The translations under genes were made by a program, and so were the position numbers. Shown piece after piece: positions 2,106-19,287 of a stretch of DNA of 64,000 nt; position 1 is the first letter of the stretch; each line of letters starts with the position of its first letter. The notes under the pieces were generated by a model. That model worked only from the letters and a program-made list of their open reading frames with translations, was not told the DNA's origin and did no database searches. Source of the DNA: Mucilaginibacter rubeus. GTDB lineage: Bacteria; Bacteroidota; Bacteroidia; Sphingobacteriales; Sphingobacteriaceae. The stretch spans positions 1-64,000 of the forward strand of contig NZ_BMKD01000005.1 in the NCBI RefSeq assembly GCF_014643835.1, written 5' to 3'.

Positions 2106-4430
2106 TTATGTTAAGTTTACTTGTTTCCATGCCTGCCACGATGACCATCCTACCCTTACGTATTCATTTGTCGCGGTGTCATAAGAAGACAACGTTTGTT
2201 TAACGGTACCGATACTCGCTTTATGAGTTATCAGCATTCCATTGATAGGCCACCCATCAGAGGAAGAAACATAATCAGTACATATCCCCGTTGGAAACGC
2301 AGTAGGAAGTTTAGAAAGTGTTATACCACTCGGAGTACCGTCATAAACAAGGGCTGTTGGAACAGGTGATAAAATGTAGAAAGATTGCCAACCCGATACT
2401 GACCATCCGACACGAACGTAAAGCTTACCGTTATTGGTTGCATCGAAAGACGCCAATTCTTGCCTATACATGTCATTACTAAGGTGATGAGTTATGAGAA
2501 ATCCGTTGATAGGCCACCCGTTAGACGATTCGACATATTCGTGTGTAATACCTTTGCTATACGCAGACGGTAACGCTGAAAACAAACGCCCAGATTGCCC
2601 GGCATCAACAACACCATCGCCTCTGAAGTATTCAGGGAATAAAACATCAAATGTCTTATTGGCCATTGCTACATATAGAGGGTCTTGCGGGTGAACTAAT
2701 TCGTTGGGTAATGATACATTTATGGCTGTTAAGTAATCCTGCCCGTGTACACTATCCTGAAAAGTGCCGTAAATGTCTTGATAAACACATTGGTATTTTC
2801 TGGCTAATGCTCTTAAGCCACTATTAACAAGCTCATTAAAAATCTGTCCCTGATGCCCATTAGAATCATCTGTCGTTGGATTTTGCGATTGGATAATAAT
2901 AGCTAAATGCCGATAATCAAACCCCGTTGTGCTCCTTATGGTAGATAGTCCAGTATCCAAGCGGCTTAAAAAAGCAGTAGCATTAGCTTCGGGAGTGCCA
3001 CCGGCCCAACTATCATTTATTCCCCAACGTAAAATATACACATCAGGATTTTGAGCCAAATCTGCCGATAAAGAAGTCGATAACCAATAAGGAGTACCTT
3101 GGCCTCCTATACCGCTGTTAACATAAGTTACGTTGTTAATCCGATTATTTAAAGTTATCTGATTAAGAAGTATATCCGGGTGATATGTGTTTGAGCTTGC
3201 GCCAGTTCCCGCAGTTGTACTATCTCCTGAAAGAATTACCTTAACAGCTGATTTAGCTAATAGCTTTTTGTGAAATGATGATAAATACTCTTCACCGAAT
3301 ACCCTTTGGTATTTATCAGCATAGCTATTTATCTGCTGTTTAAGGTATGTGGTTTGCTTTAAAATCCTGACATCGCCGTCTATAGTTACCCCGTTTGTAT
3401 TATCAAAAGCAGTGACCAAGAAATCACCCTTGTCAAATATCCTCTTATTGGCAGCTAAAGCATTTGCAACCGCCGCTGTATCATCGGTTACGCCATCGCC
3501 CACAGCGCCGTAATCAACCCTAAATGATTTAATTTGGCCGGAAGGTTCGGACGAACCGCCGCTGCCTCCAGATGGCGCGTTTATCCAATGTGTATCACCA
3601 TCCGCATTAGTGTTTTTCGCCAGTATTTGACCAGCAGTACCGCCGGTTGGCACTCCAACACCTGCCGGGCCTTGTGCGCCGTCTACAGGTGCATTTATCC
3701 AATGCAAATCACCATCGGCGTTACTGTTTTTTGCGAGTATTTGCCCGGCTGTACCTCCAGTCGGAATTTTAAACAGAGCCGTTATTTGAGCCTGCAATTT
3801 TCCAAACGCCTGTAATATGCTATCGGTAGCGGCTACGGCTGTTGATGTGCCAAAGCCGATACCTGTTAAAATGGAGTTTAAAACTCTTGAATTGGTAAAG
3901 TACTTGTTTGTTGCACCTTCGGGCACGGCATCAGTAGTACCCGGTGATGCAACGATTTGAATATAGGTTGAACCGCTCCAGCGGTATTCATTATTATTAT
4001 CCGTGGTAATGTAAATTTTACCAGCTTCGCCCGGTGCGGGTAATGCTACGAAATTGGCAAACTCCAGCACATCATCTACGTAGCTGGGTAACTGGCTTGC
4101 CGAAACTTTACCAGTTTCATCTAACCCGGCGTATCCATTTGCTATATTTTTATTAGCCACATCTTCGGCTGTATATCCTATGCCGCCGCTTTCTGTCAGT
4201 TCATCAATTTGCATTTGCAAATCCTCATCGGCGCTTGCGCGAGTGGTAGCCTCATTTTGTAAATCTTCGTTTGCAGCTTTCCCGGCCAGCGTGGTAGACA
4301 AGCCACCAATCTTACTAATAGGCAGAGTATCGTCATCTTTGTGCCAAAACGAATCAATCCACGAAGCGAATTGCCCGGCGGTAGGCTTTGCGCCTCTCGT
4401 AAAAAATGCTTTTAATTGTGCTCTTGTCAT
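2106..4430 (-). CDS. tail fibre with SGNH esterase and pyocin-knob-like repeats
   Basis: Probable receptor-binding fibre, 774 residues. Seen in order: an N-terminal attachment region (1-60); a heptad-like stretch (50-80); two repeats of PTGGTAGQILAKN...HWINAP (223-248 and 261-286) flanking a collagen-like GAQGPAGVG; a pectate-lyase-type DYGAVGDGVTDDTAA motif (306-320); an SGNH hydrolase with GDS (Ser404), glycine block GIGGQG (440-445), GIND (Asn472) and His580; then two similar C-terminal units (about 616-690 and 707-774) with GWPINGxLITH and YVRVGW, resembling pyocin-knob domains of R-type pyocin fibres. The usual catalytic Asp of block V appears as Glu577. The esterase would deacetylate surface glycan on the target cell (inference). 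Confidence 0.8.
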   Translation of the reverse strand: MTRAQLKAFFTRGAKPTAGQFASWIDSFWHKDDDTLPISKIGGLSTTLAGKAANEDLQNEATTRASADEDLQMQIDELTESGGIGYTAEDVANKNIANGYAGLDETGKVSASQLPSYVDDVLEFANFVALPAPGEAGKIYITTDNNNEYRWSGSTYIQIVASPGTTDAVPEGATNKYFTNSRVLNSILTGIGFGTSTAVAATDSILQAFGKLQAQITALFKIPTGGTAGQILAKNSNADGDLHWINAPVDGAQGPAGVGVPTGGTAGQILAKNTNADGDTHWINAPSGGSGGSSEPSGQIKSFRVDYGAVGDGVTDDTAAVANALAANKRIFDKGDFLVTAFDNTNGVTIDGDVRILKQTTYLKQQINSYADKYQRVFGEEYLSSFHKKLLAKSAVKVILSGDSTTAGTGASSNTYHPDILLNQITLNNRINNVTYVNSGIGGQGTPYWLSTSLSADLAQNPDVYILRWGINDSWAGGTPEANATAFLSRLDTGLSTIRSTTGFDYRHLAIIIQSQNPTTDDSNGHQGQIFNELVNSGLRALARKYQCVYQDIYGTFQDSVHGQDYLTAINVSLPNELVHPQDPLYVAMANKTFDVLFPEYFRGDGVVDAGQSGRLFSALPSAYSKGITHEYVESSNGWPINGFLITHHLSNDMYRQELASFDATNNGKLYVRVGWSVSGWQSFYILSPVPTALVYDGTPSGITLSKLPTAFPTGICTDYVSSSDGWPINGMLITHKASIGTVKQTLSSYDTATNEYVRVGWSSWQAWKQVNLT

Positions 4431-4454
4431 CTTTATAATGGTATTATAATTTTT

Positions 4455-5261
4455 TTAGTCAAAAAAGCCGAGAATCGGCTCAATCCACATGCCTGTTACG
4501 TAGGGGTTAATGGTTTTCATTGGAGTAGGCGTTTCACTTCCGGCAGGGCCAGTAGCAATAACATCTCCCGAATATAAGCCGCGATCATCGTCGCTCTTCA
4601 AAGAATTGCCTTCATACTGATCACCGATATGATCGGTACGCGGTCGATTAGTAGGGTGAGTGTGCTTTATTAAATTATCCAGCGTCATGGTTACATCTTT
4701 TGCACCGCCAATTTTTCCCACTGTGTCAAAGTCAGCATCGGCCGGATCCCAATGCATCGGCAATTTACCCCGCCAATCAACAACCTCTTGCCAACCAGCC
4801 GGAATATTTTCAATCGACCCCTTCCACCAAACCATACCTCCGGGGCCAGCAAATGGCCTTAGCAGCCCCTCTAAGCGATCAAGGCGGGCCAGCACGCCTT
4901 CTGCCGTATTTCTTTTAAAATTCGCCCATAGATAACTGCTTACACCGTTATCGCCGAATTTAGCTGTACGGACATACTTTACCGTCCGGGAGACATTATC
5001 CTCGAAAGTCAGCGAGGTAGCTTCTTCCATAATGATGACTTTGGCCTGTGCGACACCGCCCGTAAAAGGCAGGATCTCTCCGTTAATGACCACTACGCCG
5101 TTACTGACCGACCCGCCGCTGGCCACGCAGCCGGATAAGATCGACATTGGTCCCGAAAGGTTTGCAGCCGAAGCCGCGGTATTGATGCAATCCTGCATGA
5201 ATTGAAGAACACCCTGGTCAAACGGGAAACCGCCAGGCTGTGTAAAATCATATCTGTTCAT
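4455..5261 (-). CDS. tail-collar-domain protein
   Basis: 268 residues. The C-terminal half has the phage tail-collar pattern: a G-W-x-x-V-x-WRGKLPMHW segment near residues 155-170, GGAKDVTMTLDNLIKHTHP at about 185-203 and a final NPYVTGMWI, as in short fibres and collar proteins of contractile phages. The N-terminal half is likely the baseplate-attachment part. The start overlaps the stop of the upstream gene by 4 bases, so translation is probably coupled. It lies between the baseplate genes and the fibre. It may be a second adhesin or the connector for the long fibre. Confidence 0.7.
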   Translation of the reverse strand: MNRYDFTQPGGFPFDQGVLQFMQDCINTAASAANLSGPMSILSGCVASGGSVSNGVVVINGEILPFTGGVAQAKVIIMEEATSLTFEDNVSRTVKYVRTAKFGDNGVSSYLWANFKRNTAEGVLARLDRLEGLLRPFAGPGGMVWWKGSIENIPAGWQEVVDWRGKLPMHWDPADADFDTVGKIGGAKDVTMTLDNLIKHTHPTNRPRTDHIGDQYEGNSLKSDDDRGLYSGDVIATGPAGSETPTPMKTINPYVTGMWIEPILGFFD

Positions 5262-5746
5262 ATCGTTCTGTATATTAAAAATCGTTTTCCTGCCAGTTTG
5301 TAGTACCTCACCAGGGCGTTCATTTCTACCAGGTCCTGCGCACTGAGCGGGACCGCGGAGGGCACGTTGACGATAAAGTCTACACCCGTATCGCCGTAAT
5401 CCCCGGGGTTATGAAGCGCTATTGTACCGGCAAACAAAGGTTTGTTTTCATCAGTCCGGAAAATAAAGGTCCGGTCAAAGGCGAAAGCGTCAGCTATGGA
5501 GATACGCCGCCCAGTGGTATCAAAACGGTCGTTCATCACCGCCCGGAGGCTGAAGACCCTGCCATCATGCATGAGGTTGTACAGATCTGCCGCCCGGCGT
5601 ACCATCAACCGGTTGTAAAGCAGTACAAAGGGGCTGCACAGTGCGCGCAGCCAGGCGAATAGCACCGGTTTTCGTTTGAAACCGGGTATGGATTCCATGA
5701 TCAGCCTGTCATAGCCGATATTGAAAAGCTTATCATAATCAGGCAT
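5258..5746 (-). CDS. conserved tail/baseplate protein of unknown role
   Basis: 162 residues, no signal peptide. Its place after the gpJ-like gene and before the collar protein corresponds to gpI in P2-type tails, which trims the baseplate wedge. I see no diagnostic motif, so the gpI role rests on position alone. The N-terminal half is basic and tyrosine-rich; the C-terminal half is a predicted beta/alpha domain. It overlaps both neighbours by a few bases within one polycistronic unit. Confidence 0.55.
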   Translation of the reverse strand: MPDYDKLFNIGYDRLIMESIPGFKRKPVLFAWLRALCSPFVLLYNRLMVRRAADLYNLMHDGRVFSLRAVMNDRFDTTGRRISIADAFAFDRTFIFRTDENKPLFAGTIALHNPGDYGDTGVDFIVNVPSAVPLSAQDLVEMNALVRYYKLAGKRFLIYRTI

Positions 5747-6569
5747 ACGGGTAATAATTTATGGTGAAACCATCCTCTATAACCCTCAGGTAACCGGCAT
5801 CCGGTATGAGCCGCTCCTGGATCTCGGAAAAGGGACGGATACCATATCGCGACTGCGCGCTTAAAATCCCCACCAGCTCGACGCCTTCCACGGCCTGCAG
5901 CTGGTCCATCAGCCGCGTCTTGGCAAATTCTCCGTTGAACCGCAGGTTTTGCAGGTAAGCGTTAACCGCGTCGATGACCGGAGTGTCTCCGTTTCCGTCG
6001 ATGCGGGCTCCTGCGCCGTCGAGTACCAGCGGATCATAGTAAACATCCAGTACCAGTTTAAGATCATCGGGAGGCAGGCTATCCACGTGAACACGTACCC
6101 CGGCATCCTTGGTATCAAAGACGTAGGCACTGAACGCGAGCTTTTCGTCATCGGAAAGCTGCCCGTAGTCGCCTCCTGCCTGTTTCACTACTTTCATCCT
6201 GACGGAGCCATCGGTATTTTCTGTAACCGCCGCCTGGCTGATAATTTTCTGGGCTGCTATCTGCGTATCGCTGAGGCCGCTGTTCAGGTACTGATCAGTA
6301 TCCTGCAGGAGCATCTGCCCGTATTGAAAGCGCAGCGCCAGTTCCCGATACCAGTTCAGCGTATGCGGTTTTTTGGCGGCCAGCGTGTCGGTGATCTCGG
6401 CAGCGCGCAGGTCAAAAAGTACGTCGACCGTCCATGCTACGAAGGCCACAATATAAGCCCATAATTTAAAATCAGCCACCGCGCTGGTGTGGTCCAGTGC
6501 CGCCAGTGTTTCATCGCTGTTTACCTTGCTGATGATCTGGCCGTTCCAGTATTCTATTGTTTGTGCCAT
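5739..6569 (-). CDS. baseplate J-like wedge protein
   Basis: 276 residues. The layout fits Bacteroidota gpJ-like baseplate proteins: an N-terminal helical part (about 1-130), a central beta domain, then a C-terminal part with AVEGVELVGI and a final GYLRVIEDGFTINYY. In P2-type tails gpJ forms the ring of wedges round the hub. Homologues are sometimes labelled nucleotidyltransferase in databases; I see no nucleotidyltransferase motif here. It is 1 base from the LysM gene and overlaps the next gene by 8 bases. Confidence 0.65.
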   Translation of the reverse strand: MAQTIEYWNGQIISKVNSDETLAALDHTSAVADFKLWAYIVAFVAWTVDVLFDLRAAEITDTLAAKKPHTLNWYRELALRFQYGQMLLQDTDQYLNSGLSDTQIAAQKIISQAAVTENTDGSVRMKVVKQAGGDYGQLSDDEKLAFSAYVFDTKDAGVRVHVDSLPPDDLKLVLDVYYDPLVLDGAGARIDGNGDTPVIDAVNAYLQNLRFNGEFAKTRLMDQLQAVEGVELVGILSAQSRYGIRPFSEIQERLIPDAGYLRVIEDGFTINYYPYA

Positions 6570-6570
6570 A

Positions 6571-6861
6571 TTAACTTACTATAAAATCGTATTCAATTAT
6601 CCAATACTCTATCCCGGCGGGGGCAAGCACCTGTACATCAGCGACCGACGAAGCGGGGCTGATGCCGTAGGTCGCGAAGTAGCTGGCTACTTCAAATACG
6701 CTTACCCTACCCGCATCTATCGTTGCCCCTGGCTTCAGCGCATCCGTTATCCCAATTCTGTTCAGGGCAGCAAGCGCAAACACGTTTTCCGCTGTCCCCG
6801 TGTACTGCGTGGCGATATCGGCCAGTGCCTGGCCTGCCTTAATTATCTTATTATTTGACAT
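6571..6861 (-). CDS. LysM-like tail protein
   Basis: 96 residues. Residues 8-45 read AGQALADIATQYTG, then NVFALAALN and LKPGATI, a LysM-like fold with the expected spacing. It resembles gpX-type tail proteins that link hub and tube in contractile tails. The C-terminal half is a short beta-rich extension. It overlaps the gp25-like gene by 11 bases and is followed within 2 bases by the gpJ-like gene. Confidence 0.7.
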   Translation of the reverse strand: MSNNKIIKAGQALADIATQYTGTAENVFALAALNRIGITDALKPGATIDAGRVSVFEVASYFATYGISPASSVADVQVLAPAGIEYWIIEYDFIVS

Positions 6862-7147
6862 AGTCTCCTCTGATATTTAAAAAGCCGTTTTCAAATCCCA
6901 TGCCCTGGATCGCCACGCCGTCCTGACTGAAGCGAAGCCTAATCTCACGCAGCAAATCCTCACCGGCGATACTTCCTTCATCATTCAAAAACTGGAACGT
7001 ACCAACCGTAGCCAGCGGCGCCTGCCGGTATTCTCCCTTTTCAGCCAGCAACAGCTTCCGCTGCTGCTGCTGGTTACTTTCACCGCGAACGAAGTCGCCG
7101 TTTACGATCAGCAGATCGTCATTGTCATCCATCAGGTAATCAATCAT
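6851..7147 (-). CDS. gp25/gpW-like baseplate wedge protein
   Basis: 98 residues. Matches the small gp25-like wedge proteins of Bacteroidota tails: a GDFVRGESNQQQ start region, LLLAEKGEYRQAPLATVG in the middle (the family's core), then EDLLREIRLRFSQDG and a closing NIRGDYV. In contractile tails gp25 holds sheath and wedge together and is among the most conserved baseplate parts. Overlaps both neighbours slightly, as expected in a tail operon. Confidence 0.7.
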   Translation of the reverse strand: MIDYLMDDNDDLLIVNGDFVRGESNQQQQRKLLLAEKGEYRQAPLATVGTFQFLNDEGSIAGEDLLREIRLRFSQDGVAIQGMGFENGFLNIRGDYVK

Positions 7148-7362
7148 TGTAAATGCCCGTTAAAAGTTCCTGTTACCGGGTTGCTCCCGGCTGTCAAACC
7201 ATTGTTGTATATGATGTCGGCTGTCCTGATATATGCTTCCAACCTATCTGCAAAAGCATCGATAAAAGCGTCCAGCGCCGCATCTCTGTCCCCGGATGCC
7301 TCATAGGTCCGGGTATAGACCTCTTTCAGGCCCGCTTTAAAATCTTGTGTATCCAGGCTCAT
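7144..7362 (-). CDS. small conserved tail-operon protein
   Basis: 72 residues, mostly helical and acidic, with no motif I recognise. It sits between the spike and gp25-like genes, overlapping both by 4 bases (ATGA-type coupling), which supports it as a real gene. Function unknown; a baseplate accessory or chaperone is possible. Confidence 0.6.
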   Translation of the reverse strand: MSLDTQDFKAGLKEVYTRTYEASGDRDAALDAFIDAFADRLEAYIRTADIIYNNGLTAGSNPVTGTFNGHLQ

Positions 7363-7820
7363 GGTAAAAGATCATTTATGCGTTCAATCAATTCGGTTAT
7401 AGCGGGCACGTCCTTCGGAGCAGCGATACTTAATACGCCGCGGACCAGGTCATTCAGGATCTTCCCCAGGGTATCTCCGCCCTTACTGACCAATAAACCT
7501 TCAGGGTCGACCCGCAGAACTGTGTTCCCGGTCGTTATCCGGTACATGGCGATCTGATCGCAGGCGATCACGATATAATCATCATCTGCCAGCTTCCCGA
7601 TCACTACCGGAGAGCCCGCGACCGGCAACACATCAATACTTTTCCTGTCACTCATCACCGCTCTCAGCCGCACGCCGTAGACCTCTGCCTCATCCAGCAG
7701 TACGTCACAGGTAAAAGCGTCCTGATCCACTGCAACGACAACAGCATCATGAAAACTCACCGGGCCGCCTGCATGGGCGAGCTTTACAAACGACCTTCTT
7801 AGTTTATTTAATTCATTCAT
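7359..7820 (-). CDS. gpV-like central spike/OB-fold protein
   Basis: 153 residues. Residues 20-90 have the pattern of the gpV/gp5 N-terminal OB fold (VVVAVDQDAFTCDVLL, VYGVRLRAV, GSPVVIGKLADDDYIVIAC), followed by a short beta region and a helical C-terminus. The long triple-helix needle repeats and HxH iron tip of P2 gpV are not evident, so the tip may be supplied by another protein. The gene follows the hub gene with a 4-base overlap, the same order as hub and spike in many contractile tails. Confidence 0.65.
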   Translation of the reverse strand: MNELNKLRRSFVKLAHAGGPVSFHDAVVVAVDQDAFTCDVLLDEAEVYGVRLRAVMSDRKSIDVLPVAGSPVVIGKLADDDYIVIACDQIAMYRITTGNTVLRVDPEGLLVSKGGDTLGKILNDLVRGVLSIAAPKDVPAITELIERINDLLP

Positions 7821-8923
7821 TTGACCTCCGTGTTAGTTGAACTTTCCGACAAACGGTAGGTTAGTTGGACCTTTCGCTCTCCCCCGTTAACCCCGAAACC
7901 AACCTCGGTACCCTCTATAAAGTAGGTACCAGCCCGGCCACCGTCATACCGGGCATCAAAAATGACTGCCTTCCAGCCGGGTTTGCAAAAGGGTTCGAGC
8001 AAGCCCGAAAGCGAACCTTCATAACCATCATATTTCAGTTGCTTAAGTCCGTTTTTCGCGAGGGAGGCCAGGCTGTCCGGGTGGCCGGTAAACGGGATAT
8101 TGCGTTCCTCTACTGCACCTCCCGGATCTCCAGCCTCATAAGTGGTGACAGCGCCGGTCCGGCTATGCTGTTTTATCCTGACCAGTACCTTGGTTTCCTT
8201 AGCTGATCTGATCTTCAGGTCTGGCTGATCGGAGGCACAATTATAGCCTATCTTATAAGTCACCTGTTCCAGGTTGGTCATGCTTTCAGTAATACCCCCG
8301 GTCACTGTTGTCCTGGTTTCCTCCGTGCCGGCATACAGAACGTTATCATCAAAATAAACCGTCAGGAACATTTGATCCTTCAGGGACTCCAGCACCTGGA
8401 GCCCGTTCCTGTTCGGTATCCGGTAATTGATCAGCGGCATGTCCGGTATGTCCGGGCTTAAAACGATATCTGTCCCTGCTATAACCTGCCCCAGAACCTC
8501 GCGTAGCGTGGTTTTCTTCCAGCTGGCCAGTATGTTCCTGTTGCGGAGCTGCCATGCATAGCCTTCCATTTCAATGCTGACCGGCGTGGTAATATTGACC
8601 CGTCTGACAAAGCCCCGGAACTCGTTCTGCAGCACACCGTTGTATCCAAGGTCGATGCTGACCGGGTCACCCTCCCTGAATAGTTTGGCTATATCGATAC
8701 TTTCAGCCCGACGGTTAGCGGCACTGCCCGGTTCTCCCAACCCCGCGAAACCAAGTGCGTCCCTGATGGCAGGGATCTCCCTGACGATCCGGACGGCACC
8801 GGGTATTTTGAGAACTGCGCTGTCGACGATCGTATGAATGTTCTTTTTGATCACCAGGTCGTTGACGCCACCGGCAAAGCTGTAATTGCCTATGTTGATA
8901 ATGCTGTTCAGTACAAAAGCCAT
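7817..8923 (-). CDS. gpD-like baseplate hub protein
   Basis: 368 residues, the size expected for gp27/gpD-type hubs (about 320-400). The beta-rich N-terminal half, the central segment WKKTTLREVLGQVIAGTDI and the later IPNRNGLQVLESLKDQ followed by LTVYFDDNVLYAG are typical of phage late-control D proteins. The hub trimer joins tube and spike. It overlaps the spike gene by 4 bases and abuts the upstream DUF6046-like gene. Confidence 0.75.
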   Translation of the reverse strand: MAFVLNSIINIGNYSFAGGVNDLVIKKNIHTIVDSAVLKIPGAVRIVREIPAIRDALGFAGLGEPGSAANRRAESIDIAKLFREGDPVSIDLGYNGVLQNEFRGFVRRVNITTPVSIEMEGYAWQLRNRNILASWKKTTLREVLGQVIAGTDIVLSPDIPDMPLINYRIPNRNGLQVLESLKDQMFLTVYFDDNVLYAGTEETRTTVTGGITESMTNLEQVTYKIGYNCASDQPDLKIRSAKETKVLVRIKQHSRTGAVTTYEAGDPGGAVEERNIPFTGHPDSLASLAKNGLKQLKYDGYEGSLSGLLEPFCKPGWKAVIFDARYDGGRAGTYFIEGTEVGFGVNGGERKVQLTYRLSESSTNTEVK

Positions 8924-9540
8924 TACTTTGAATTTGAATCGATCGTTAATTTTAAAATGCTGTCGCTTTTCATTTCCATTGCGAAGTCACGGACGCCTAT
9001 CACCCTTGGTTTTTCAGGAATGGACAGCTTGTAGATCAGCACGCGATCATCTGCGGAAAGAAAAAGGTCTGAATAAGCTGATTTCAACCGAACCTCCTCT
9101 TTGCTCTGAAACACATATTTGAGCGCCTGCAGCTCGTCACCGGGTAATTGTTCCTGATATCCGATCACGAAACCTTTGACCGAGATGCTCCAGTCCTTCA
9201 TGCTGATGATCTGCTTGGCCGTTCCTCCGGCCTCCGACATTTCTGTTTCCTTGATCATTTTTTCGCGTTCAAAGCCGATGACGGTATAGGGGAAAAAATA
9301 TTCAATCTGGCCGACCATAATGGTCAGCGGGCAGAATACCTCGCGCCCTATTGTATCTTCGCCGCTGTAATAGGAATTACCATAAGGGTTCGTCAGCATT
9401 GGCGCACGCGGGCTGAAATTATAGGAACGCTCTGCCGCTGCAGACGGCAACTCCGGGATCTGGGCAGGCTTATAGCCGTACAACTGCCTGAAAATGGCTG
9501 CGATGTCAAAGACAGTATCTGATTGGTTTATTGTTAACAT
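8923..9540 (-). CDS. DUF6046-like tail protein
   Basis: 205 residues. The pattern (EVFCPLTIMVGQ near the middle, a KDWSISVKGFVIG strand, PGDELQALKYVFQS, then a C-terminal KSDSILKLTI) matches what I recall of DUF6046, a family confined largely to Bacteroidota contractile tails; the assignment is from memory. Position between tape measure and hub corresponds to the tube-initiator or gp53-like site. Shares a single base with each neighbour. Confidence 0.6.
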   Translation of the reverse strand: MLTINQSDTVFDIAAIFRQLYGYKPAQIPELPSAAAERSYNFSPRAPMLTNPYGNSYYSGEDTIGREVFCPLTIMVGQIEYFFPYTVIGFEREKMIKETEMSEAGGTAKQIISMKDWSISVKGFVIGYQEQLPGDELQALKYVFQSKEEVRLKSAYSDLFLSADDRVLIYKLSIPEKPRVIGVRDFAMEMKSDSILKLTIDSNSK

Positions 9541-12374: not shown

Positions 12375-13571
12375 TTAATTGTTGTTTTGCGGGTTATTGA
12401 AACCCAGTTTGATATTGATTAATTTGCTGTATCCTTTACGGCGGATGCCTATTTCAACCTGCAGGGTAGAGGTTTGCGTGATCTGCTGGGTGTCATCGAT
12501 ATAAACAACCGGGTCGCTGCTCATGCTCTCCGCCATATTCAGGTTAAGTGCATTTACCATAGAAGCCTCGAGTGCCTTCAGCACAACCGGTTCAATCCGG
12601 CCGTTGTCATCAAGATCGATGTCATCATTGATCTCATTAACATAAGTCTGGTAGGCAACGATCGCCGCCTTGTCGATCACACGGCCAAAAGTAAGGCTGT
12701 TGTAGTCATCTGTTTCAGGACTGGCCATCGGGTCGTTGCTGATAAACAAACCGCCCTTCTGATCATACTTTTTGACCGTGATATATCCTGCATCGATCAG
12801 CTGGTCAAGCTGCCTGAAATAAGCCTGGTCGGGATTGTCCAGGTCAGGCAATATACTTTGCGTTCCGATGAAATAGTTACTAATCGGCAGGTCCCCGTCT
12901 TTTACCCTGCCGATATTGACATGCGGTGCGGTAGCGGCGATTCTGCCAAGCACAAGGCCCAGAGACGTAACGCCGTTGGCTGCGGTTCCGCCGATCACCA
13001 GGCCTACGTTATTGGCAGTTAGTTCATTTGGATTGTCAATCGTGCTGCTTGTCACATCGTTAACGCGGGCTGCAAGCAGGATACGCAACGGTTTGTGTGC
13101 GGCAAACATTGCCAGGGCGAAAGCTTTCGCGTTCGGAACCGCGGCAATCACGTCGCTGTCGATAAACTTGGATACAGTGGGCGTATATCCGGTAACCGGG
13201 GTGCGTGCAACGGCGGCTACACGGATGTCTCCGCCGCCGAAATCGATCAGTTTTTTCAGACCGGTTGCTACGGTAACATCGCAAAGCGTCGTTAAGCTTG
13301 TCGCCGCGGCAGCGAGCATCAGGTATACCGGGCATCCCTGTGTACCGTCAATACTGTAGAATTCACGGACGAACTGGTAGGCCTCCGGTTCGGCCTCTTC
13401 GGTTATGCCCCTGGATTCGGCGTCTGCTAAGCTTACAAGCTTAACCGGGGTAAGCAGCGGTAGTGTTCCAGTTCCGGAACCGGTAAGCAAAACGCCTGTT
13501 ATATTGTCGTTGGTTGCGGTAGAACCGCCTAACTGGCCCTTGGCCAGTTGCACATTTACTGCAGGAATCAT
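12375..13571 (-). CDS. contractile tail sheath protein (DUF2586-like)
   Basis: 398 residues, full family length. Features recalled for the DUF2586 sheath family are visible: N-terminal MIPAVNVQLAKGQLG, the ESRGITEEAEPEAYQFVREF block (about 53-72), GCPVYLML, a middle Rossmann-like hydrophobic region, and a C-terminal Q-T-STLQVEIGIRRKGYSKLI strand that would form the inter-subunit handshake. Presence of a sheath defines the particle as contractile (myovirus or R-type), not siphovirus-like. Confidence 0.85.
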   Translation of the reverse strand: MIPAVNVQLAKGQLGGSTATNDNITGVLLTGSGTGTLPLLTPVKLVSLADAESRGITEEAEPEAYQFVREFYSIDGTQGCPVYLMLAAAATSLTTLCDVTVATGLKKLIDFGGGDIRVAAVARTPVTGYTPTVSKFIDSDVIAAVPNAKAFALAMFAAHKPLRILLAARVNDVTSSTIDNPNELTANNVGLVIGGTAANGVTSLGLVLGRIAATAPHVNIGRVKDGDLPISNYFIGTQSILPDLDNPDQAYFRQLDQLIDAGYITVKKYDQKGGLFISNDPMASPETDDYNSLTFGRVIDKAAIVAYQTYVNEINDDIDLDDNGRIEPVVLKALEASMVNALNLNMAESMSSDPVVYIDDTQQITQTSTLQVEIGIRRKGYSKLINIKLGFNNPQNNN

Positions 13572-13945
13572 TAGTTTTTATCTCCTTTAATTGATTGGGT
13601 TGCCTTTTCTATCAGGCTGTTTTGAAATGGTATTCTCTCATCGTCCACGGTGGCAAAAGCCTCCGCTAAAGTGTTCTTCGTTGTGCCGGCAGCTGCTTTC
13701 GCCTGGTCTTTTCCTAAAGCTTCCCCGAATAGTGTCTCTCCGCGGGTAACTTCAATAAAATCCGCGCAGGCAAGCTTTTGCGAATGACTACCGGCGGGGC
13801 TTTCAGAGAAAAAGGCCAGTCCGCCTGAGGTCACAAAGACGCTTTCCTGTTCAGGGCGGGTCGCAAACAGTACTTCGAGCGAAGCTTGCGTGACCCCGGC
13901 ATCACTGAGGGCCTTGATGAACGCTTGGTTCTTTTCGATTTTCAT
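13571..13945 (-). CDS. unknown tail-operon protein
   Basis: 124 residues from the ATG at 13945, preferred because the longer frame would run back into the upstream gene. No domain recognised. The acidic C-terminus and SGGLAFFSESPAG in the middle give no functional clue. It touches the sheath start (1 base) and so is part of the same operon. Possibly a capping, chaperone or tail-length factor. Confidence 0.6.
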   Translation of the reverse strand: MKIEKNQAFIKALSDAGVTQASLEVLFATRPEQESVFVTSGGLAFFSESPAGSHSQKLACADFIEVTRGETLFGEALGKDQAKAAAGTTKNTLAEAFATVDDERIPFQNSLIEKATQSIKGDKN

Positions 13946-13955
13946 TTTATATGGT

Positions 13956-14435
13956 TTATTGTTTATTGAATATTTGCTTAAAATAGATTTCAAGTATACT
14001 CACCGCCTCGCTCCAGCTTAAACGGCCTTCGCCAACGACCGTCATCAGCCTGGCGGCCAGCGCATGGTACAGATGGTCCTTATCCGCATCAGCGGCGGAT
14101 TTTATTTTATCAAGCGGTCCGCTGAGCAGATCACCATGACCGGCTGGCTGGTTACCGGCCGAAAAAGTGAGCCCCGATAATATGCCTGGCAATGCTTCTT
14201 CAATCATCTTCCTCATACGCTCATCGGCGGGGCCGGCGAGCAGCGAGGCCCGTCCGGCTGTCAGGTCACCGTTCAGGGCCTTCTTGATATTATTCACCAC
14301 GGTGATACAGTAATCGATTTGCTGGTTACTGATCGCTATGCCTTCGGGCAGGCGTACCCTGAGCGCCGTGAGCCCGGTCAGTTTTTGCAAAAGGCCTGCA
14401 AAAAGACCGCCTATAACTCTTAAAATATTGTTCAT
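13956..14435 (-). CDS. unknown tail-operon protein with helical C-terminus
   Basis: 159 residues. A hydrophobic N-terminal helix (MNNILRVIGGLFAGLLQKL) is followed by a soluble helical domain. The hydrophobic start next to holin and lysozyme genes makes a third lysis protein possible, but nothing diagnostic is seen. It begins 4 bases after the lysozyme stop. Confidence 0.55.
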   Translation of the reverse strand: MNNILRVIGGLFAGLLQKLTGLTALRVRLPEGIAISNQQIDYCITVVNNIKKALNGDLTAGRASLLAGPADERMRKMIEEALPGILSGLTFSAGNQPAGHGDLLSGPLDKIKSAADADKDHLYHALAARLMTVVGEGRLSWSEAVSILEIYFKQIFNKQ

Positions 14436-14439: not shown

Positions 14440-14916
14440 TCAGGCAGGGGTGTTAAACAGTTTCGTTTCTTTTTCACGTCTTTTAACCAGCGCTTCGCTG
14501 ACTTTTTTCTTTCCCGTTCCGGGATCGGTTACCTTGTTCCAGACCAGGAACTGCGCCGCGGCACCAGTATAATCTTCCTTGTTCAGCTTTTTGAGCAGGG
14601 TACTTGAGGGCAGGCTGCCGGTATTGTAATGAAAGCTGACCAGCGCGTCGTACTGATTCTGGTTGACGGGCACACTCACCACCCTGTTAACCGTCCGCTC
14701 AAAGTCTTTTAAAACCGCTGAAAGCAGATCCGCAGCGCATTCCTTGTTGGGCAGCCGGTCCGCCGGTTGTATCCCCTTGCCGTTTGCATAGTAAGTACAC
14801 CCATAACCTATCGTCCATTTACCCGCCTCGTCCTGATACGCGGTTAATTTCAGCCCCTCGAACGACTTTATTATATTTAATCCGCGTTCACTGAGCGTGT
14901 GTTTATTTATCGCCAT
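14440..14916 (-). CDS. GH24 endolysin (T4/P22-type lysozyme)
   Basis: 158 residues, the normal family size. The E-D-T catalytic signature is visible: Glu in IKSFEGLKLTAYQDEAG (about residue 20) and Thr in KWTIGYGCTYY (about 35). Later VNQNQYDALVSFHYNTG matches the second half of the family. It cleaves the MurNAc-GlcNAc bond of peptidoglycan. No signal peptide, so release needs the holin encoded just upstream (10-base overlap). In a headless cluster a lysozyme-holin pair implies release of particles by cell lysis. Confidence 0.9.
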   Translation of the reverse strand: MAINKHTLSERGLNIIKSFEGLKLTAYQDEAGKWTIGYGCTYYANGKGIQPADRLPNKECAADLLSAVLKDFERTVNRVVSVPVNQNQYDALVSFHYNTGSLPSSTLLKKLNKEDYTGAAAQFLVWNKVTDPGTGKKKVSEALVKRREKETKLFNTPA

Positions 14917-15482
14917 AATGATGTTATTTTAGTTTTGATTGATTCGATCCAGGCTGACTTTTCCTTGCCTTCAATTACTGCCAGGTTTTCCAGTATGGAA
15001 ACCATGTTTTCCTGCGCGATATGGATGATCAGGAAGTTCTGCAGCCAGTCAAAGCATTCCGCCATGACCGCCTCCCCCTTAGCCGCGTAATTCTGCGACC
15101 AGTGGTACGGGACCGCGATGAGCACCAGGTATATAAAAACCTTGAATGAAAACCGGGAGAGGCGAAAACTGCTGAAACGTTCCTTTTTTATTCTGGATGC
15201 TGCTATACCGCTCAACAACTCTACCACAAAGGCCATCAGCATCATGATCAGGGCAGCTGTCTGGATACCGAGCGCCAGCGGGATATCCGGAACGAGTGAG
15301 GCCAGCCCCGAAAGACCGGGGAACGTCAGGCTCACCACGAGCAGCGGTCTTGTCAGGCTGTACTTACAGGAGGGAGCAATGCTTTGAAAAAGGGTCCGCA
15401 GGTCCTCGTAGTCAAAAGTTACGAGCATCCTCGTTAGCAGAGAACTTATCATGGTACATATTTTTATTATATAGATCTTCAT
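14907..15482 (-). CDS. phage holin (Phage_holin_4/TcdE-like)
   Basis: About 191 residues from the ATG at 15482 (an alternative ATG lies at 15452). Hydrophobic segments: VVSLTFPGLSGLASLVP, ALGIQTAALIMMLMAFVV and VFIYLVLIAVPY, with ELLSGIAASRIKKERFSS between the second and third, the hallmark of this holin family. The holin permeabilises the inner membrane to let the lysozyme reach the wall. First recognisable gene of the long minus-strand tail operon. Confidence 0.8.
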   Translation of the reverse strand: MKIYIIKICTMISSLLTRMLVTFDYEDLRTLFQSIAPSCKYSLTRPLLVVSLTFPGLSGLASLVPDIPLALGIQTAALIMMLMAFVVELLSGIAASRIKKERFSSFRLSRFSFKVFIYLVLIAVPYHWSQNYAAKGEAVMAECFDWLQNFLIIHIAQENMVSILENLAVIEGKEKSAWIESIKTKITSLWR

Positions 15483-15545
15483 TTTTCTTTTTTTTAACCG
15501 CGCCGCCCCTGACCGTATCGGGGGACTATTAAGGCGCGGGTACAC

Positions 15546-15689
15546 TTACGACCGGTAGGCATTTCCTGCCCCTGCGGCGGGCGGCCCTTTGATAAAGCAG
15601 CTGGTGCTTTTCCCTGTTTCCGGGATTCCCAAGCCGTCGCTACAGGTTGTCATTTTTCTTTTTTCCGCTACTTTTCCAAGCGGCTTCAT
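15546..15689 (-). CDS. possible 47-residue small protein ahead of the lysis genes
   Basis: An ATG at 15689 opens 47 codons. The product is basic and Gly/Ser/Cys-rich with DGLGIPETGKSTS in the middle. A -7-like box TACGTTTG lies just upstream (15692-15699), though without a clear -33 TTG. This would be the first frame of the lysis-tail transcript. No family recognised; it could be only the untranslated leader. Confidence 0.25.
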   Translation of the reverse strand: MKPLGKVAEKRKMTTCSDGLGIPETGKSTSCFIKGPPAAGAGNAYRS

Positions 15690-15699
15690 GACAAACGTA

Positions 15700-16439
15700 C
15701 GGCGCTATTTCGGAGATAAAAAACCGTGTTTATGATTGATTGACAGCGTTTTTGGCAATGATAAAAGTTGCGTTAATCATTCGTTTTTTTATTCATTTCA
15801 ATAGAAAAAGCACCATGCTCAAAATGAAGCAATTACTAATATTTTTAGCAATCAAAACTCGCAGATTTCAATATCAGGGAGGCGCCCCTCCGGCATCCGG
15901 TTAATAATGAGACAACCCGGATTCCAGCACCCCTACCGGGATTATGCAGGTATAGCATTTGTCCGGAAGCTGCATTTGTCGGAATAACCGATAATCAAAG
16001 TGCCTGGGAACAGCAGGGCTCCGCTGCTTATTTTATAGCGTATTAAAACTGTTAATAAGACCGGCCGAAACTGACGGTGAAAACGCGGGCCTGCCGCCGG
16101 GCGCGTCGGAATGAATGCACTTGTAACTATTTCGCCGCTTTGTTTTTTGCAGAACTGCGCAGGACGCTTTTTCGGTTGCTGCAGATATTACACAGTATAC
16201 AGATGCAGACAGCACCTACAGACAGCTCCCCATTGTCTGCCTTTTTTCAGGATGATAGCTATCGTTTCAGCCAATGATGCACAGCGCATTAATCATCAGA
16301 ATATGCGATTGGCGGGAAAGCGGTAAAACAGACATCTTTGAATACCAAGAGCCCGGCATTACCGATAAAATACTGCTAAGGATTTTTTTCCAGCGTTATG
16401 GGTTACTGGCTAACAGTATATTAACAAAAAAATAAATAA
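15700..16439. other. 740-base intergenic gap between lysis genes and tail-terminator-like gene
   Basis: No convincing gene on either strand; the frames present have atypical codon use. The gap separates the leftward lysis/tail operon from the rightward gene at 16440, so both promoters should lie here. I could not identify an activator site or a copy of the TTAGAC-N4-GTCTAA repressor operator. Confidence 0.5.
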
Positions 16440-16952
16440 ATGAGCACATCACAAACAGATGCCATCCTGGCCAATGTATTTTCGAGCGTACAGGAGCGGC
16501 TTGCCACGATCCCTGATTTACAATTTATCGGTATGGATATCGGGCAGCTGGAATGGGGCGAAGAAAATGCGAGTCCGGTTCTATTTCCCTGCGTATTGCT
16601 TGGACGGATCGATATTAACTATACGGACAACAAGAAATCCATCCAGCAGGGGGACGCCATACTTGAATTATTACTGGCCATGGCGGCACCGGGGCCGGGG
16701 CCGGACAGCGGATCTACTGCAGCTGATTATTTCAATCTTGAACACAAGATCAATCAGGCCCTGCACGGCTGGTGCGACCAGCAGTATTTTAATCCCATGA
16801 GCAGGGTCCGTGCCAAGAACAAACGCAGAAAGCGGACTGATATCCGGGTCCGAGCGCTGCGTTTCGGCTTTGGCTTCGTCGACGACACCGCCATGCAGGT
16901 CGGACACACGGGTCAGCGTCCCGATATGGTACTGTCATTGCAATTATCTTAA
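16440..16952 (+). CDS. putative tail terminator/completion protein
   Basis: 170 residues. The start (helix with VQERLATIPDLQFIGMD), a central IQQGDAILELLLAMA strand/helix and the C-terminal RVRALRFGFGFVDDTAM resemble tail-terminator (gpU/DUF3168-like) proteins that cap the tube at the head-proximal end. The fold assignment is by pattern only. It is the sole late-type gene on the plus strand, facing away from the tail operon, with its own terminator. In a particle without a head a cap is still needed, which fits its retention. Confidence 0.5.
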   Translation: MSTSQTDAILANVFSSVQERLATIPDLQFIGMDIGQLEWGEENASPVLFPCVLLGRIDINYTDNKKSIQQGDAILELLLAMAAPGPGPDSGSTAADYFNLEHKINQALHGWCDQQYFNPMSRVRAKNKRRKRTDIRVRALRFGFGFVDDTAMQVGHTGQRPDMVLSLQLS

Positions 16953-16954: not shown

Positions 16955-16986
16955 CAAAAAAGCCGCTTTACCCAGCGGCTTTTTTG
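16955..16986. terminator. bidirectional terminator
   Basis: AGCCGCT (16961-16967) and AGCGGCT (16974-16980) form a 7-bp stem with a 6-base loop, flanked by an A run and a T run. It ends the plus-strand gene at 16952 and, from the other side, carries the stop codon of the minus-strand gene ending at 16968. Confidence 0.85.
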
Positions 16987-17213
16987 TTTAAGAGGGCTAA
17001 CAGTTCGGTGGTCCGTCTGATATCTCTCACCTCATCGCTTACGGTTACAAAGATCTCATCACCGGCGGTAAACGCTATGCTTATATTTCCGAGCCGGTAT
17101 ATTTCCGAAATTCCTATAAGAAAAGAGGAGGCGCCGGCCGGTTTGAAGCCCAGCGCTTCCACGACGGAATAATTTATAAACTCCAAAGCCTCGTGGTATT
17201 GTTGTATATCCAT
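16968..17213 (-). CDS. unknown small early-region protein
   Basis: 81 residues, mixed alpha/beta, no known motif. Part of a run of short minus-strand genes between the repressor and the structural genes. Its stop lies inside the bidirectional terminator, marking the end of this early transcript. Confidence 0.55.
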   Translation of the reverse strand: MDIQQYHEALEFINYSVVEALGFKPAGASSFLIGISEIYRLGNISIAFTAGDEIFVTVSDEVRDIRRTTELLALLNKKAAG

Positions 17214-17216
17214 ATG

Positions 17217-17279
17217 TCAGGTTCTTGTTTCTGTCCGTTTCAATTTGAATTCGGCCCGCGGCAATTGCGGCCTTGTCAT
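17217..17279 (-). CDS. possible 20-residue micro-ORF
   Basis: ATG at 17279 with a GGAG sequence about 6 bases upstream; the stop is 3 bases before the ATG at 17213. The product is short and strongly basic (R/K-rich, TRPQLPRAEFKLKR). Tight spacing suggests translational coupling, but length alone makes it uncertain. Confidence 0.25.
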   Translation of the reverse strand: MTRPQLPRAEFKLKRTETRT

Positions 17280-17303
17280 GAGGATCTCCGCCAGGTATAA
17301 CGT

Positions 17304-17615
17304 TTATGACCAGTTGAAGTGAGGTAGGAGCTTCTGAAGGTATTTGCTGTCCGCTTCCTCCGATTTAAGCTTTTCGAGCACATCACGCTCCTGCATAATG
17401 ATCTGGGAAATTGTTGTTTCACCCAAGTAAAATTCAGTATTCAGTTTTTCAACCGCGCGCTCATATTGCAGGCCTTTGATCTTGTAATGAAAATACAGGC
17501 GGCATACAATATCATGATCGCGGCGCGCTTTAAAAATGCCTTTTACGTGCTTAACGCCTTCTTTTTTTAATGGTTCCGAGAGTATATTGGAAATCAATTG
17601 TTTACCGAGTGCCAT
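17304..17615 (-). CDS. small phage protein with possible HTH-like region
   Basis: 103 residues from the ATG at 17615, chosen over a longer frame whose first part is a hydrophobic run of non-coding character. The pattern RRDHDIVCRLYFHY, AVEKLNTEFYLGETTISQII resembles a short Bacteroidota phage/ICE family in which the second part looks like a helix-turn-helix (EFYLGETTISQIIM). It could be the late activator of the tail operon; this is inference from position. Confidence 0.5.
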   Translation of the reverse strand: MALGKQLISNILSEPLKKEGVKHVKGIFKARRDHDIVCRLYFHYKIKGLQYERAVEKLNTEFYLGETTISQIIMQERDVLEKLKSEEADSKYLQKLLPHFNWS

Positions 17616-17727
17616 AGTTGGTTTAGATATAAAATAAAAGTAAAACGAAATTATCAACAATAATGTCCGGCCCGGGTCATTCAAAAGCTGATCCTTTTAA
17701 AAGTTACAGTAGGATTGTTATATGGTG

Positions 17728-17835
17728 TTATCCCTGCTGACGCAGCGCATATTTAAAAGGTTTGCAGTCCTCAACCGGCAGCCGCTGTAACCGCTGTCTT
17801 TGCGTGGCGTTGCCTGTCCCGTGTACCTTGCTCAT
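17728..17835 (-). CDS. 35-residue small protein, coupled start
   Basis: The ATG overlaps the stop of the preceding gene in an ATGA arrangement (17832-17835), a strong sign of translational coupling. The product is basic and Gln/Arg-rich (TQRQRLQRLP) and ends YALRQQG. No family is known to me; size and charge would fit a nucleic-acid-binding or accessory protein. Confidence 0.45.
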   Translation of the reverse strand: MSKVHGTGNATQRQRLQRLPVEDCKPFKYALRQQG

Positions 17836-18140
17836 GCGTAAAGCTTATTTAAAAGGTTCAGCTGGTCATTGATGAATGCCTGTTCGTATCTCCACCCCTC
17901 CCCGAGGTAACGCTGGCTAAAATAAAGATAGTATGCTTTGGCCTCCATATCAGTCAGCAATATACTATAGCCATCCCCTTTAAGCCTCGCTGCCAGTTTC
18001 GCCTCCAGTTTTCTGAAGACCGACTTCAGCAGGTCTTTTACTAGGCTTTCTGTAATATCAGGGGCAGGATCCTGGTTCACGATCTCCCGGAAAAGGTTGT
18101 GCAACGCTTCCGCCTGCCGGATGGTTAGTTTTAGTGTCAT
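17832..18140 (-). CDS. unknown helical early protein
   Basis: 102 residues from the ATG at 18140; a longer upstream frame has Cys/Arg-rich text unlike a phage protein and overlaps the preceding gene. Predicted mostly helical, with EALHNLFREIV near the N-terminus and YYLYFSQRYLGEGWRYEQAFIND near the C-terminus. No known domain. Lies in the repressor-proximal early transcript. Confidence 0.55.
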   Translation of the reverse strand: MTLKLTIRQAEALHNLFREIVNQDPAPDITESLVKDLLKSVFRKLEAKLAARLKGDGYSILLTDMEAKAYYLYFSQRYLGEGWRYEQAFINDQLNLLNKLYA

Positions 18141-18151
18141 ATTCAAGTGTG

Positions 18152-18313
18152 TTAAACAGGTTGATGGTGAGTAAAGGTCAGCGCATGATTTACACCGGCG
18201 GCAACGCATCCTTTGCCCCCCCGGTCGGTATCACCCGCTGTACGTGTGTGTAGCAACGAGTCGGTACCGTTTTTCTTGATATAAGTGGATTTAATATTTT
18301 TATTTTTGCTCAT
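18152..18313 (-). CDS. first gene of the early transcript, small basic protein
   Basis: 53 residues from the ATG at 18313, the first start after the divergent promoter. Very Lys/Asn-rich N-terminus (MSKNKNIKSTYIKK), no domain. It is the gene most directly exposed to repression from the operator at 18341, so it may encode an antirepressor or regulator; no sequence evidence beyond position. Confidence 0.4.
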   Translation of the reverse strand: MSKNKNIKSTYIKKNGTDSLLHTRTAGDTDRGGKGCVAAGVNHALTFTHHQPV

Positions 18314-18324: not shown

Positions 18325-18387
18325 TTTGCACATACAAATATTAGACTATTGTCTATTATTTGCAAATAAAATTCGACAAAAGTCTAA
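18325..18387. promoter_or_regulatory. divergent promoter with two repressor operators
   Basis: Operator 1 (18341-18356) is TTAGAC-TATT-GTCTAT; operator 2 (18372-18387) is TTCGAC-AAAA-GTCTAA; centres are 31 bp apart, about three helical turns. Operator 1 is flanked symmetrically by CAAATA on the left and TATTTG on the right, which read as -7-type boxes for leftward and rightward transcription. A TTTG lies 19 bases upstream of the leftward box. Repressor bound to operator 1 would block both promoters. Confidence 0.7.
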
Positions 18388-18402
18388 TAATATTATCAGA
18401 TT

Positions 18403-19287
18403 ATGCCTAACAGGCCCATAGACAGGCTTTTAATTTTTTTAGCCCACAAAAAGATTTCTCCCTCAAAGGCTGAGAGGCAATTATTGTTGGGAAATGGCTA
18501 TATAAAGAAGTCTCAGCAACGGGACGGCGGCATCGGAAGCGCCATACTGGAAAAGATCTGCAGGACATACTTAGACATTAGTCTAACCTGGCTTATCACG
18601 GGCGATGGGGCGATGCTGCTTGATGAAAAGGATGGAAACGCCCCCCTTGATGACAAAGAAAAAACAGGAATTGCGACCAGTACGGTCAGGCGTACCGGTA
18701 GCTTCAAGCAGCTTCAGGCCAGCCACCCTCCAATTTCTCCGATCCAGGTTATCAGCGTAGATAACGACGGCAACGAGACCATTTTGTATGTGCCCGTCAG
18801 GGCCTCCGCTGGGTATCCCAAGGGATACGCAGACCGGGAGTATATGGAGAAACTTGCATCTTTTAGCTTGCCTTACCTGAACAACGGGACGCACCGGGCA
18901 TTCGAGGTAGACGGCGACAGTATGTTCCCAACACTCGAAAACAAAGAAATCGTAGTAGGGCGTTTCGTGGAAAAGTTCGAGGATATCGTAGAAGATCATG
19001 TGCACATCATCGTAACCAGGGACCGGGGAATACTGATCAAGAGACTACTGAACAGGATCCAGAAATATGGCTTTATCGTCGCCAAATCCGATGCCCTGGA
19101 CAACCGTAACCTGTACCCTAACCAGGAGATCTACCCTGATGAAGTGGTTGAGATCTGGTTTGCAGTGGGCCATATCAATAATAAGTTCCGGCACCCGACT
19201 GATATGTATAAACGCGTGAACAACCTGGAGGCGGATCTTACAGAAATCATGAGGGTATTGAAATCAAAAAACTTGCTGGATAAATAG
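18403..19287 (+). CDS. LexA/CI-type S24 repressor with self-cleavage site
   Basis: 294 residues. N-terminal DNA-binding region (about 1-70); S24 peptidase domain at about 125-260. The self-cleavage bond is visible as Ala136-Gly137 in RASAGYP, the nucleophile as Ser173 in VDGDSMFP and the general base as Lys213 in ILIKRLL. A short coiled coil ends the protein. Such repressors are cleaved when RecA filaments form, so DNA damage should induce the cluster. Divergent from the early genes, with operators in the shared promoter and one inside the gene at 18571. Confidence 0.85.
   Translation: MPNRPIDRLLIFLAHKKISPSKAERQLLLGNGYIKKSQQRDGGIGSAILEKICRTYLDISLTWLITGDGAMLLDEKDGNAPLDDKEKTGIATSTVRRTGSFKQLQASHPPISPIQVISVDNDGNETILYVPVRASAGYPKGYADREYMEKLASFSLPYLNNGTHRAFEVDGDSMFPTLENKEIVVGRFVEKFEDIVEDHVHIIVTRDRGILIKRLLNRIQKYGFIVAKSDALDNRNLYPNQEIYPDEVVEIWFAVGHINNKFRHPTDMYKRVNNLEADLTEIMRVLKSKNLLDK
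18571..18586. promoter_or_regulatory. third operator copy inside the repressor gene
   Basis: Perfect palindrome TTAGAC-ATTA-GTCTAA, the same motif as the two sites in the divergent promoter, 168 bases into the repressor coding sequence (about codons 57-62). It could allow DNA looping or a roadblock, by analogy with auxiliary lac or lambda operators (inference). Confidence 0.55.

Follow-up and report, generated by a model that had tools for sequence, protein, structure and literature searches.

Within a 64,000-nucleotide stretch of DNA from a soil-dwelling Mucilaginibacter of the Bacteroidota (hereafter, the window), a contractile tail cluster at 2106–19287 likely encodes a repressor-controlled R-type (contractile) tailocin that descended from a Mu-like transposable phage of Mucilaginibacter. 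Comparison with its relatives suggests that the head genes were deleted and the tail genes kept under selection, probably to make a rival-killing particle. An earlier note on this DNA had described a headless contractile tail cluster and had proposed it as a candidate R-type tailocin. The first claim was confirmed by profile searches (sheath, tape measure, hub, lysozyme, holin, repressor, and fibre) and by negative tblastn searches for head genes; the second gained support from the headless layout of four related clusters, from purifying selection, from a deletion footprint, and from a related genome, G182, in which no Mu-type terminase or portal was matched.

The tail cluster lies on the minus strand, from the fibre (2106) to the holin (15452). 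Beyond the holin are a plus-strand gene of 170 amino acids (aa) at 16440–16952, then three small minus-strand genes (16968–18209), and a plus-strand S24 repressor (18403–19287) with conserved palindromes; holin, lysozyme, and repressor are all inside the cluster. Of the contractile tail set, the sheath, tube, tape measure, hub, and fibre were identified directly by profile; for the small baseplate proteins, identification relied on position and conservation. The 64-kb window yielded no capsid, portal, or terminase gene, and neither Mu-type portal, terminase, and head genes nor the transposition genes MuA and MuB had a match there.

The host is a Mucilaginibacter, and the window from 28278 onward is 94% identical to the genome G001. 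A sheath search (E ≤ 1e-40) gave matches in 5 of 149 Mucilaginibacter genomes: one headless cluster (G182) and four headed ones (G129, G015, G155, and G159, the last being the same as G108, Mucilaginibacter sp. SMC90). IMG/VR contributed a record identical to the window (G102) and two close headless relatives (G103 and G104). Most core proteins of G182, G103, and G104 are 83–100% identical to those of the window, with lower values for the tape measure (52–58%), the DUF6046 protein (69–85%), and the hub (74–84%). The window's core tail, terminator, and regulator genes also occur, in identical order, in six headed Mu-like phages of Mucilaginibacter and other Bacteroidota (G106, G107, G108, G129, G015, and G155), most of which have its lysis genes and repressor as well; among the small genes, orf140 and orf159 are absent from G106, and orf159 and the lysozyme from G155. 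Unlike the window, these phages carry eight additional head and packaging genes, MuA/MuB-type genes, and, close to the repressor, a set of early genes; they lack orf81. Their holin and 170-aa gene are 8.3–8.7 kb apart, versus approximately 0.9 kb in the window.

In G108, the additional blocks matched Portal_Mu (5.5e-59) and, weakly, the Mu F, Mu gp36, virion morphogenesis, prohead protease, and Mu transposase C families of Pfam, and they include a MuB-like ATPase. For the terminases and the major head protein, which had no Pfam match of that kind, the names come from size, place, and conservation. None of the 16 proteins from these blocks (eight head, eight early) had a match in the 64-kb window, in G103 and G104, or in the 60 kb around the G182 cluster (tblastn, E ≤ 1e-3). 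In phylogenetic trees, the tail module of the window is nested among the Mu-like phages. A P2-like ancestry, as might be read from the P2-like gene order of the earlier note, was rejected, as the nearest relatives are headed, Mu-like phages with matches to Portal_Mu, Mu F, Mu gp36, and Mu transposase C. A head module just beyond the left edge of the window, the finding that the earlier note named as refuting a tailocin, is unlikely because the headed relatives carry their head genes within the cluster. As a separate observation, the Mu F-like protein of the SMC90 phage (L022:17407–18657) has a C-terminal PBECR2 nuclease-like domain (1.2e-15).

The features of the cluster, with the evidence for each, are as follows.

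2106–4430, minus strand: tail fibre, 774 aa, with a GDSL esterase-type domain at residues 402–567 (1.3e-12; Pfam, PHROGs)
4455–5261, minus strand: tail-tip protein with a gp10-like C-terminus (gp10C; weak Pfam match to PF21939, below the cut-off; PHROG tail protein, 8e-7)
5258–5746, minus strand: 162-aa baseplate-region protein, in 10 of 10 compared loci, no family match
5739–6569, minus strand: gpJ-like baseplate protein, 276 aa, named by position (PHROG 38413, unknown function, 8e-56)
6571–6861, minus strand: 96-aa protein in the LysM position, in 10 of 10 loci, no family match
6851–7147, minus strand: gp25-like baseplate protein, in 10 of 10 loci, no family match; putative name, given by position
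7359–7820, minus strand: spike-position protein, in 10 of 10 loci, no family match, named by position
7817–8923, minus strand: baseplate hub (PHROG 4930, baseplate hub, 2.3e-49)
8923–9540, minus strand: DUF6046 protein, hub-associated (Pfam, 9.7e-18; PHROG baseplate hub, 2.6e-6)
9540–11357, minus strand: tape measure, 605 aa from Met29 of the listed open reading frame (ORF) (PHROG 9959, 3e-23)
11514–11900, minus strand: protein in the tail-assembly-chaperone position, named accordingly (PHROG 19076, unknown function, 6.9e-18)
11938–12372, minus strand: tail tube (PHROG 4579, tail protein, 1.6e-15)
12375–13571, minus strand: contractile sheath (Pfam DUF2586, 3.7e-37; PHROG 907, tail sheath, 6.7e-31)
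13571–14435, minus strand: orf140 and orf159, small proteins between the sheath and lysis genes, no family match
14440–14916, minus strand: endolysin, a phage lysozyme (Pfam, 2.9e-39)
14907–15452, minus strand: holin, approximately 181 aa, the listed ORF reaching 15545 (Pfam Phage_holin_4_1, 4.3e-11)
15498–15540: left flank of the deletion, 97.7% identical over 43 bp to G108, where it lies between the holin and major head genes
15690–15780: retained two-way promoter region, 78% identical over 91 bp to G108, where it lies between the protease and small terminase genes
16440–16952, plus strand: tail-terminator-like protein, 170 aa, adjoining a gpG-type gene in phages (PHROG 6911, unknown function, 7.9e-24)
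16968–17213, minus strand: orf81, 81 aa, found only in the four headless clusters, with the weakest constraint (omega 0.26–0.62)
17304–17684, minus strand: orf126, small putative regulator (shared core 17304–17615; omega 0.01–0.04 between the window and headless relatives)
17832–18209, minus strand: orf125, small protein retained from the phage early operon (tblastn match in 9 of 10 compared loci, window counted)
18341–18387: two operator-like palindromes, TTAGAC-N4-GTCTAA, with a third, perfect one at 18571–18586 (matching places in G182 and G104)
18403–19287, plus strand: S24 (LexA/CI-type) repressor (PHROG 4, 4.8e-13; Pfam, 23.0 bits against a cut-off of 23.3)

The footprint of head loss lies between the holin and the terminator-like gene, where the two stretches alignable with G108 adjoin places at which the phage has head genes. 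Conserved blocks of the promoter region are common to all 10 loci (4 headless, 6 headed); among them is CAAACGTA, which, read backward, fits the Bacteroidota −7 box TAnnTTTG. By comparison with G108, head genes are lost on both sides of this kept region, which points to at least two deletions. In 15453–16439, only the nucleotide footprint was found, the best protein match to a head gene having an E of 0.095. The 170-aa gene, which adjoins head genes in the phages, had no place in the earlier gene list. Beyond the window's group and its headed relatives, CAAACGTA was found in the chosen interval of only one of the eight other headless loci. One of these, G387, matched no head profile; it still shares with its headed sister, G395, the intergenic region and a remnant of 37 codons from the protease gene (E 8e-13). 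Nucleotide scar searches against headed loci gave one 98-bp match in G489 and nothing in G488, G446, G374, and G715. A candidate hairpin at 15490–15560 was discarded, being no more stable than in shuffled sequences (z −0.60), and a Sigma-70 scan showed no excess.

In all six trees built for the group (three from joined genes, three from single genes), the 4 headless clusters separated from the 6 headed ones, with a support of 100 in five and of 82 in one. The stem between the two groups measured 0.11 for the sheath, tube, and chaperone-position protein, 0.27 for the holin, 0.53 for the hub, tape measure, and neighbours, and 0.98 for the 170-aa gene; the long stem of the last would fit a change of constraint with head loss. 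The window's 170-aa protein is 83–95% identical to that of headless relatives and 42–52% to that of headed ones, and the tape measure has 605–634 aa in headless and 594–597 aa in the six headed clusters. Between the window and G182, omega was 0.045 for the sheath, 0.018 for the tube, 0.091 for the hub, 0.163 for the tape measure, 0.026 for the holin, 0.041 for the lysozyme, 0.114 for the 170-aa gene, 0.061 for the repressor, and 0.010 for orf126. By these estimates, the tail, lysis, and repressor genes are under purifying selection.

To place the cluster among other Bacteroidota, we used matches to a gpJ-type profile, which were present in 20 of 399 genomes of the family, 23 of 400 of the order, and 20 of 395 of the class (overlapping samples). 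The family had 25 gpJ places, from which 20 stretches were taken (G182, G129, and G015 were covered separately, G007 was at a contig edge, and the two pieces of G374 were treated as one), and the class had 21, from which 20 were taken, leaving out G769. Among the resulting 40 stretches, 26 matched at least four head profiles, and L107, which is cut short, matched two. The other 13 matched none: eight of them carried the tail genes, and five carried gpJ as their sole tail profile. Wider stretches around the eight headless loci also contained no head profile (E ≤ 1e-3). A TerL-profile match in G446 (E 0.0064), isolated and 7.6 kb beyond the repressor, outside the cluster, was taken as chance. 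With G837, G848, and the four clusters of the window's group, there are 14 headless loci, and these form five separate clades on the sheath, gpJ, and hub trees with each of five outgroups tried (the trees do not include 7 of the 40 stretches, L099, L107, L109, and L112–L115). In the first tree (45 loci), G387 grouped with the headed G395 (support 100), G489 with the headed G257b and G005 (100), and G488 and G446 with the headed G259 (98). Head loss of this kind thus seems to have recurred among related phages.

Both MuA and MuB are kept in 7 of the 10 headless loci outside the window's group (G484, G324, G374, G848, G488, G489, and G387), and were not found in G446, G837, and G715. In the one pair compared, G324 and G374, omega was 0.057 for MuA and 0.051 for MuB, at synonymous distances (dS) of 1.16 and 1.03, values like those of their tail genes and indicative of purifying selection. 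MuA has three invariant acidic columns in 12 proteins, candidates for the catalytic triad. The gpJ frame of G374 is split, which counts against the intactness of that locus. At the G324 site, the left flank was unmatched in six other genomes and the right flank in G374, and no empty site was found; inspection by eye pinned down no exact Mu ends or target duplications. In the gpJ searches, the headless loci outside Mucilaginibacter were single-copy, giving no support for recent transposition. As separate observations, G259 holds four copies of a headed Mu-like phage (L079–L082), possibly an active transposable phage, and in the headless clade of G374, G324, G484, and G848 (L091, L084, L083, and L162), a gp25-like gene adjoins the terminator gene, in an orientation opposed to that of the remaining tail genes.

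Downstream of gpJ, more than one copy of the fibre N-terminal module was found in 7 of the 12 headless loci and in none of the 26 headed ones (Fisher p 6e-5; related loci are not independent, and the arrays are in three of the five headless clades). When G837 (three modules), G848 (one), and the headed G835 (one) are included, the counts become 8 of 14 and 0 of 27. Modules were counted where the sequence downstream of gpJ was in hand, with G259d, G674, G566, G577, and G713b outside the count; one module was detected in 15 of the 26 headed loci and none in 11. Less than 9 kb of downstream sequence was available for four of the 26 headed loci and for four of the headless ones. In G103 and G104, different extra fibre genes lie between gp10C and a common 612-aa fibre. 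Such arrays in headless loci fit a weapon whose spectrum is under selection. We propose, with somewhat less than even confidence, that recurrent head loss in Mu-like phages of Bacteroidota has given at least five tailocin lineages, often with fibre arrays, and that the loci keeping MuA and MuB are transposable tailocins. If so, these would be mobile elements with a killing machine as their only particle, which could use replicative transposition to increase gene dosage upon induction, or to move within a genome and on to others.

The same data bear on whether the cluster is simply a decaying cryptic prophage, its heads lost by chance and the remainder not yet decayed. The absence of the transposase and early genes, the weak constraint on orf81 and orf140, and the split gpJ gene of G374, in another headless lineage, would all fit decay. 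This reading is nevertheless improbable, as the window and its headless relatives have open frames for the core tail, lysis, and repressor genes, with omega mostly at 0.01–0.2, the two-way promoter has been retained, and headless loci occur in five separate clades.

Slightly less probable still is a split phage or satellite that obtains its heads from a helper phage or from genes at another place in the genome. Helper-dependent elements do exist; satellites usually do not keep a whole tail. G182, the one complete chromosome with the cluster (a single contig), had no match to the large terminase of G108; of the three genomes searched with that protein, G005 gave a distant match (28% identity). 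Portal_Mu, the only head type sought in a search of 18 genomes, was present in 8 of 8 headed genomes and absent from G001 and from 9 of 9 headless genomes, G182 and eight others; G837 and G848 were outside this search, and the whole-genome searches were for the Mu-type terminase and portal only. The least probable reading is a contractile injection system of the extracellular (eCIS) or type VI secretion (T6SS) kind delivering a protein cargo, which would share the contractile sheath and has counterparts in the Bacteroidales injection systems (PMC7394362), but the 20 cluster proteins scanned with Pfam (orf81 and orf125 were outside the scan) include no AAA+ ATPase or toxin family, a holin, a lysozyme, and a phage repressor are present, and the nearest relatives are headed Mu-like phages.

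For the tailocin, the following course would be consistent with the genes retained. The ancestral phage would have lost its eight head and packaging genes and its transposition genes, while the tail, lysis, fibre, repressor, and putative regulator genes stayed. The S24 repressor would hold the early promoter via the three palindromic operators until DNA damage led to its self-cleavage; orf126, perhaps with orf125, would then turn on the two-way late promoter near 15690–15780, driving transcription leftward through the lysis and tail genes and rightward through the terminator gene. Contractile tails without heads would assemble, holin and lysozyme would lyse the producer, and the released particles might bind relatives via the fibre and kill them by puncturing the envelope. 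As regards the operators of the earlier note, three palindromes (starts 18341, 18372, and 18571; at most one mismatch) have matching places in two headless relatives, but the pattern with two mismatches is not rare by chance, 19 of 100 shuffles of the 64 kb holding at least four, so their weight lies in position and conservation. Members of the orf126 family turned up near the terminator gene, whether the locus was headed or headless, in 17 of the 48 loci scanned, some stretches ending short of that place. By position, orf126 is the best candidate for a late activator.

Several points weigh against the tailocin reading. Induction by damage, the identity of the activating regulator, particle formation, and killing are steps that we infer. 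Both the terminator name and the regulator role of orf126 come from position only, and the predicted structure of orf126 was of low confidence (predicted local distance difference test, pLDDT, 47.9) and was not used. Looser omega values were obtained between the window and G182 for orf140 (0.30), orf81 (0.26), and gp10C (0.22), and in other pairs for orf81 (up to 0.62) and orf159 (0.59); many dS are near or above 1, which makes omega approximate, and the fibre is saturated, too diverged for omega. In both the window and G182, a single fibre module was detected. Finally, a helper phage elsewhere in the carrier genome is conceivable, as the search of that genome covered the 64-kb window.

Regarding individual genes, the small baseplate genes named earlier as spike, gp25-like, and LysM are open and common to all ten loci, but they matched no family, and the names are positional. 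The fibre was said to end in pyocin-knob-like repeats; no pyocin-knob family was matched in Pfam, and the fibre carries the esterase-type domain listed above. Over its whole length, it is 84.5% identical to the fibre of the headed G107, while most other tail proteins are 50–84% identical, and fibres may pass between phages and tailocins. For the tube, a stronger match than the one listed was PHROG 9206 (4e-20), covering the first third of a 501-position profile annotated as major head protein. Judged from relatives, the starts of the tape measure and the holin are more likely 11357 and 15452, respectively. The small genes orf140 and orf159 are present in the headless relatives, are absent from some headed ones, and are loosely constrained. 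A sequence search of solved structures returned nothing for the terminator or sheath, and two marginal matches for the hub, both to unrelated proteins.

The place of the cluster in the genome was also compared. Two tandem tRNA-Asp genes lie at 28340–28600, where the matches to G001 and G182 start. G001, which has no sheath match, is collinear with G182 here but lacks a stretch of approximately 131 kb; in G182 this stretch contains the headless cluster, oriented as in the window. The copies of G182 and the window are beside the same tRNA-Asp. The window's cluster also seems to be in inserted DNA because nothing left of the tRNA genes matched the 99 kb of G001 compared; the far end of the insert is beyond the window. 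Adjoining the tRNA-Asp genes is a tyrosine integrase gene (26873–28153) in which all three domains are present, and the tailocin appears to be cargo of an island.

Tailocins have been described mostly in Proteobacteria, and the R-type pyocins combine a headless contractile tail with lysis genes and regulated release. According to PMC12090994, the R-type pyocins of Pseudomonas aeruginosa are P2-derived, and the R-type syringacin of Pseudomonas syringae has a separate origin in phage Mu (there citing Hockett 2015). The window's cluster shares the headless tail and lysis genes with the former and a Mu origin with the latter; it differs from the syringacin in that its ancestor would be a Mu-like phage of another phylum, the Bacteroidota, in a group with head loss in five clades, MuA/MuB in several relatives, and fibre arrays. 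The Bacteroidales injection systems and eCIS are contractile machines of Bacteroidota with gene sets including FtsH/ATPase, and a phage lysis and repressor module is not mentioned for them in the available part of PMC7394362. BceTMilo, considered as another Mu-derived precedent, was dropped, being described in PMC5411513 as resembling P2 and KL3. The isolated Flavobacterium phages fF4, lotta8, pippi8, and FPSV, from other hosts, have a gpJ-type baseplate protein 37–39% identical in the match table. A partial literature search, judged by titles and the starts of abstracts, found no phage-derived tailocin of Bacteroidota. The locus would thus exemplify the passage from a Mu-like phage to a tail-only weapon, with both head blocks gone and the promoter between them and the terminator-like gene kept, and, with headed and headless relatives interleaved in the tree, the group lends itself to direct tests of the causes of head loss, of the fibre arrays that follow it, and of the retention of the transposase in some headless elements.

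Other neighbours of the cluster include two adjacent frames at 20071–21097 that match the catalytic and arm-binding parts of a tyrosine integrase, probably one broken gene, and three candidate defence families by PADLOC: HTH_VI at 21177–21584 (1e-5), PDC-S10 at 25442–26173 (4e-12), and PDC-S05 at 26243–26800 (2e-59). Beside the fibre, 902–2089 holds a RadC-domain gene and a 294-aa gene without a Pfam match, glycosyltransferase-looking by eye, which are possibly right-end cargo of the element. In G015, too, the fibre of the headed phage is followed by a RadC-like stretch.

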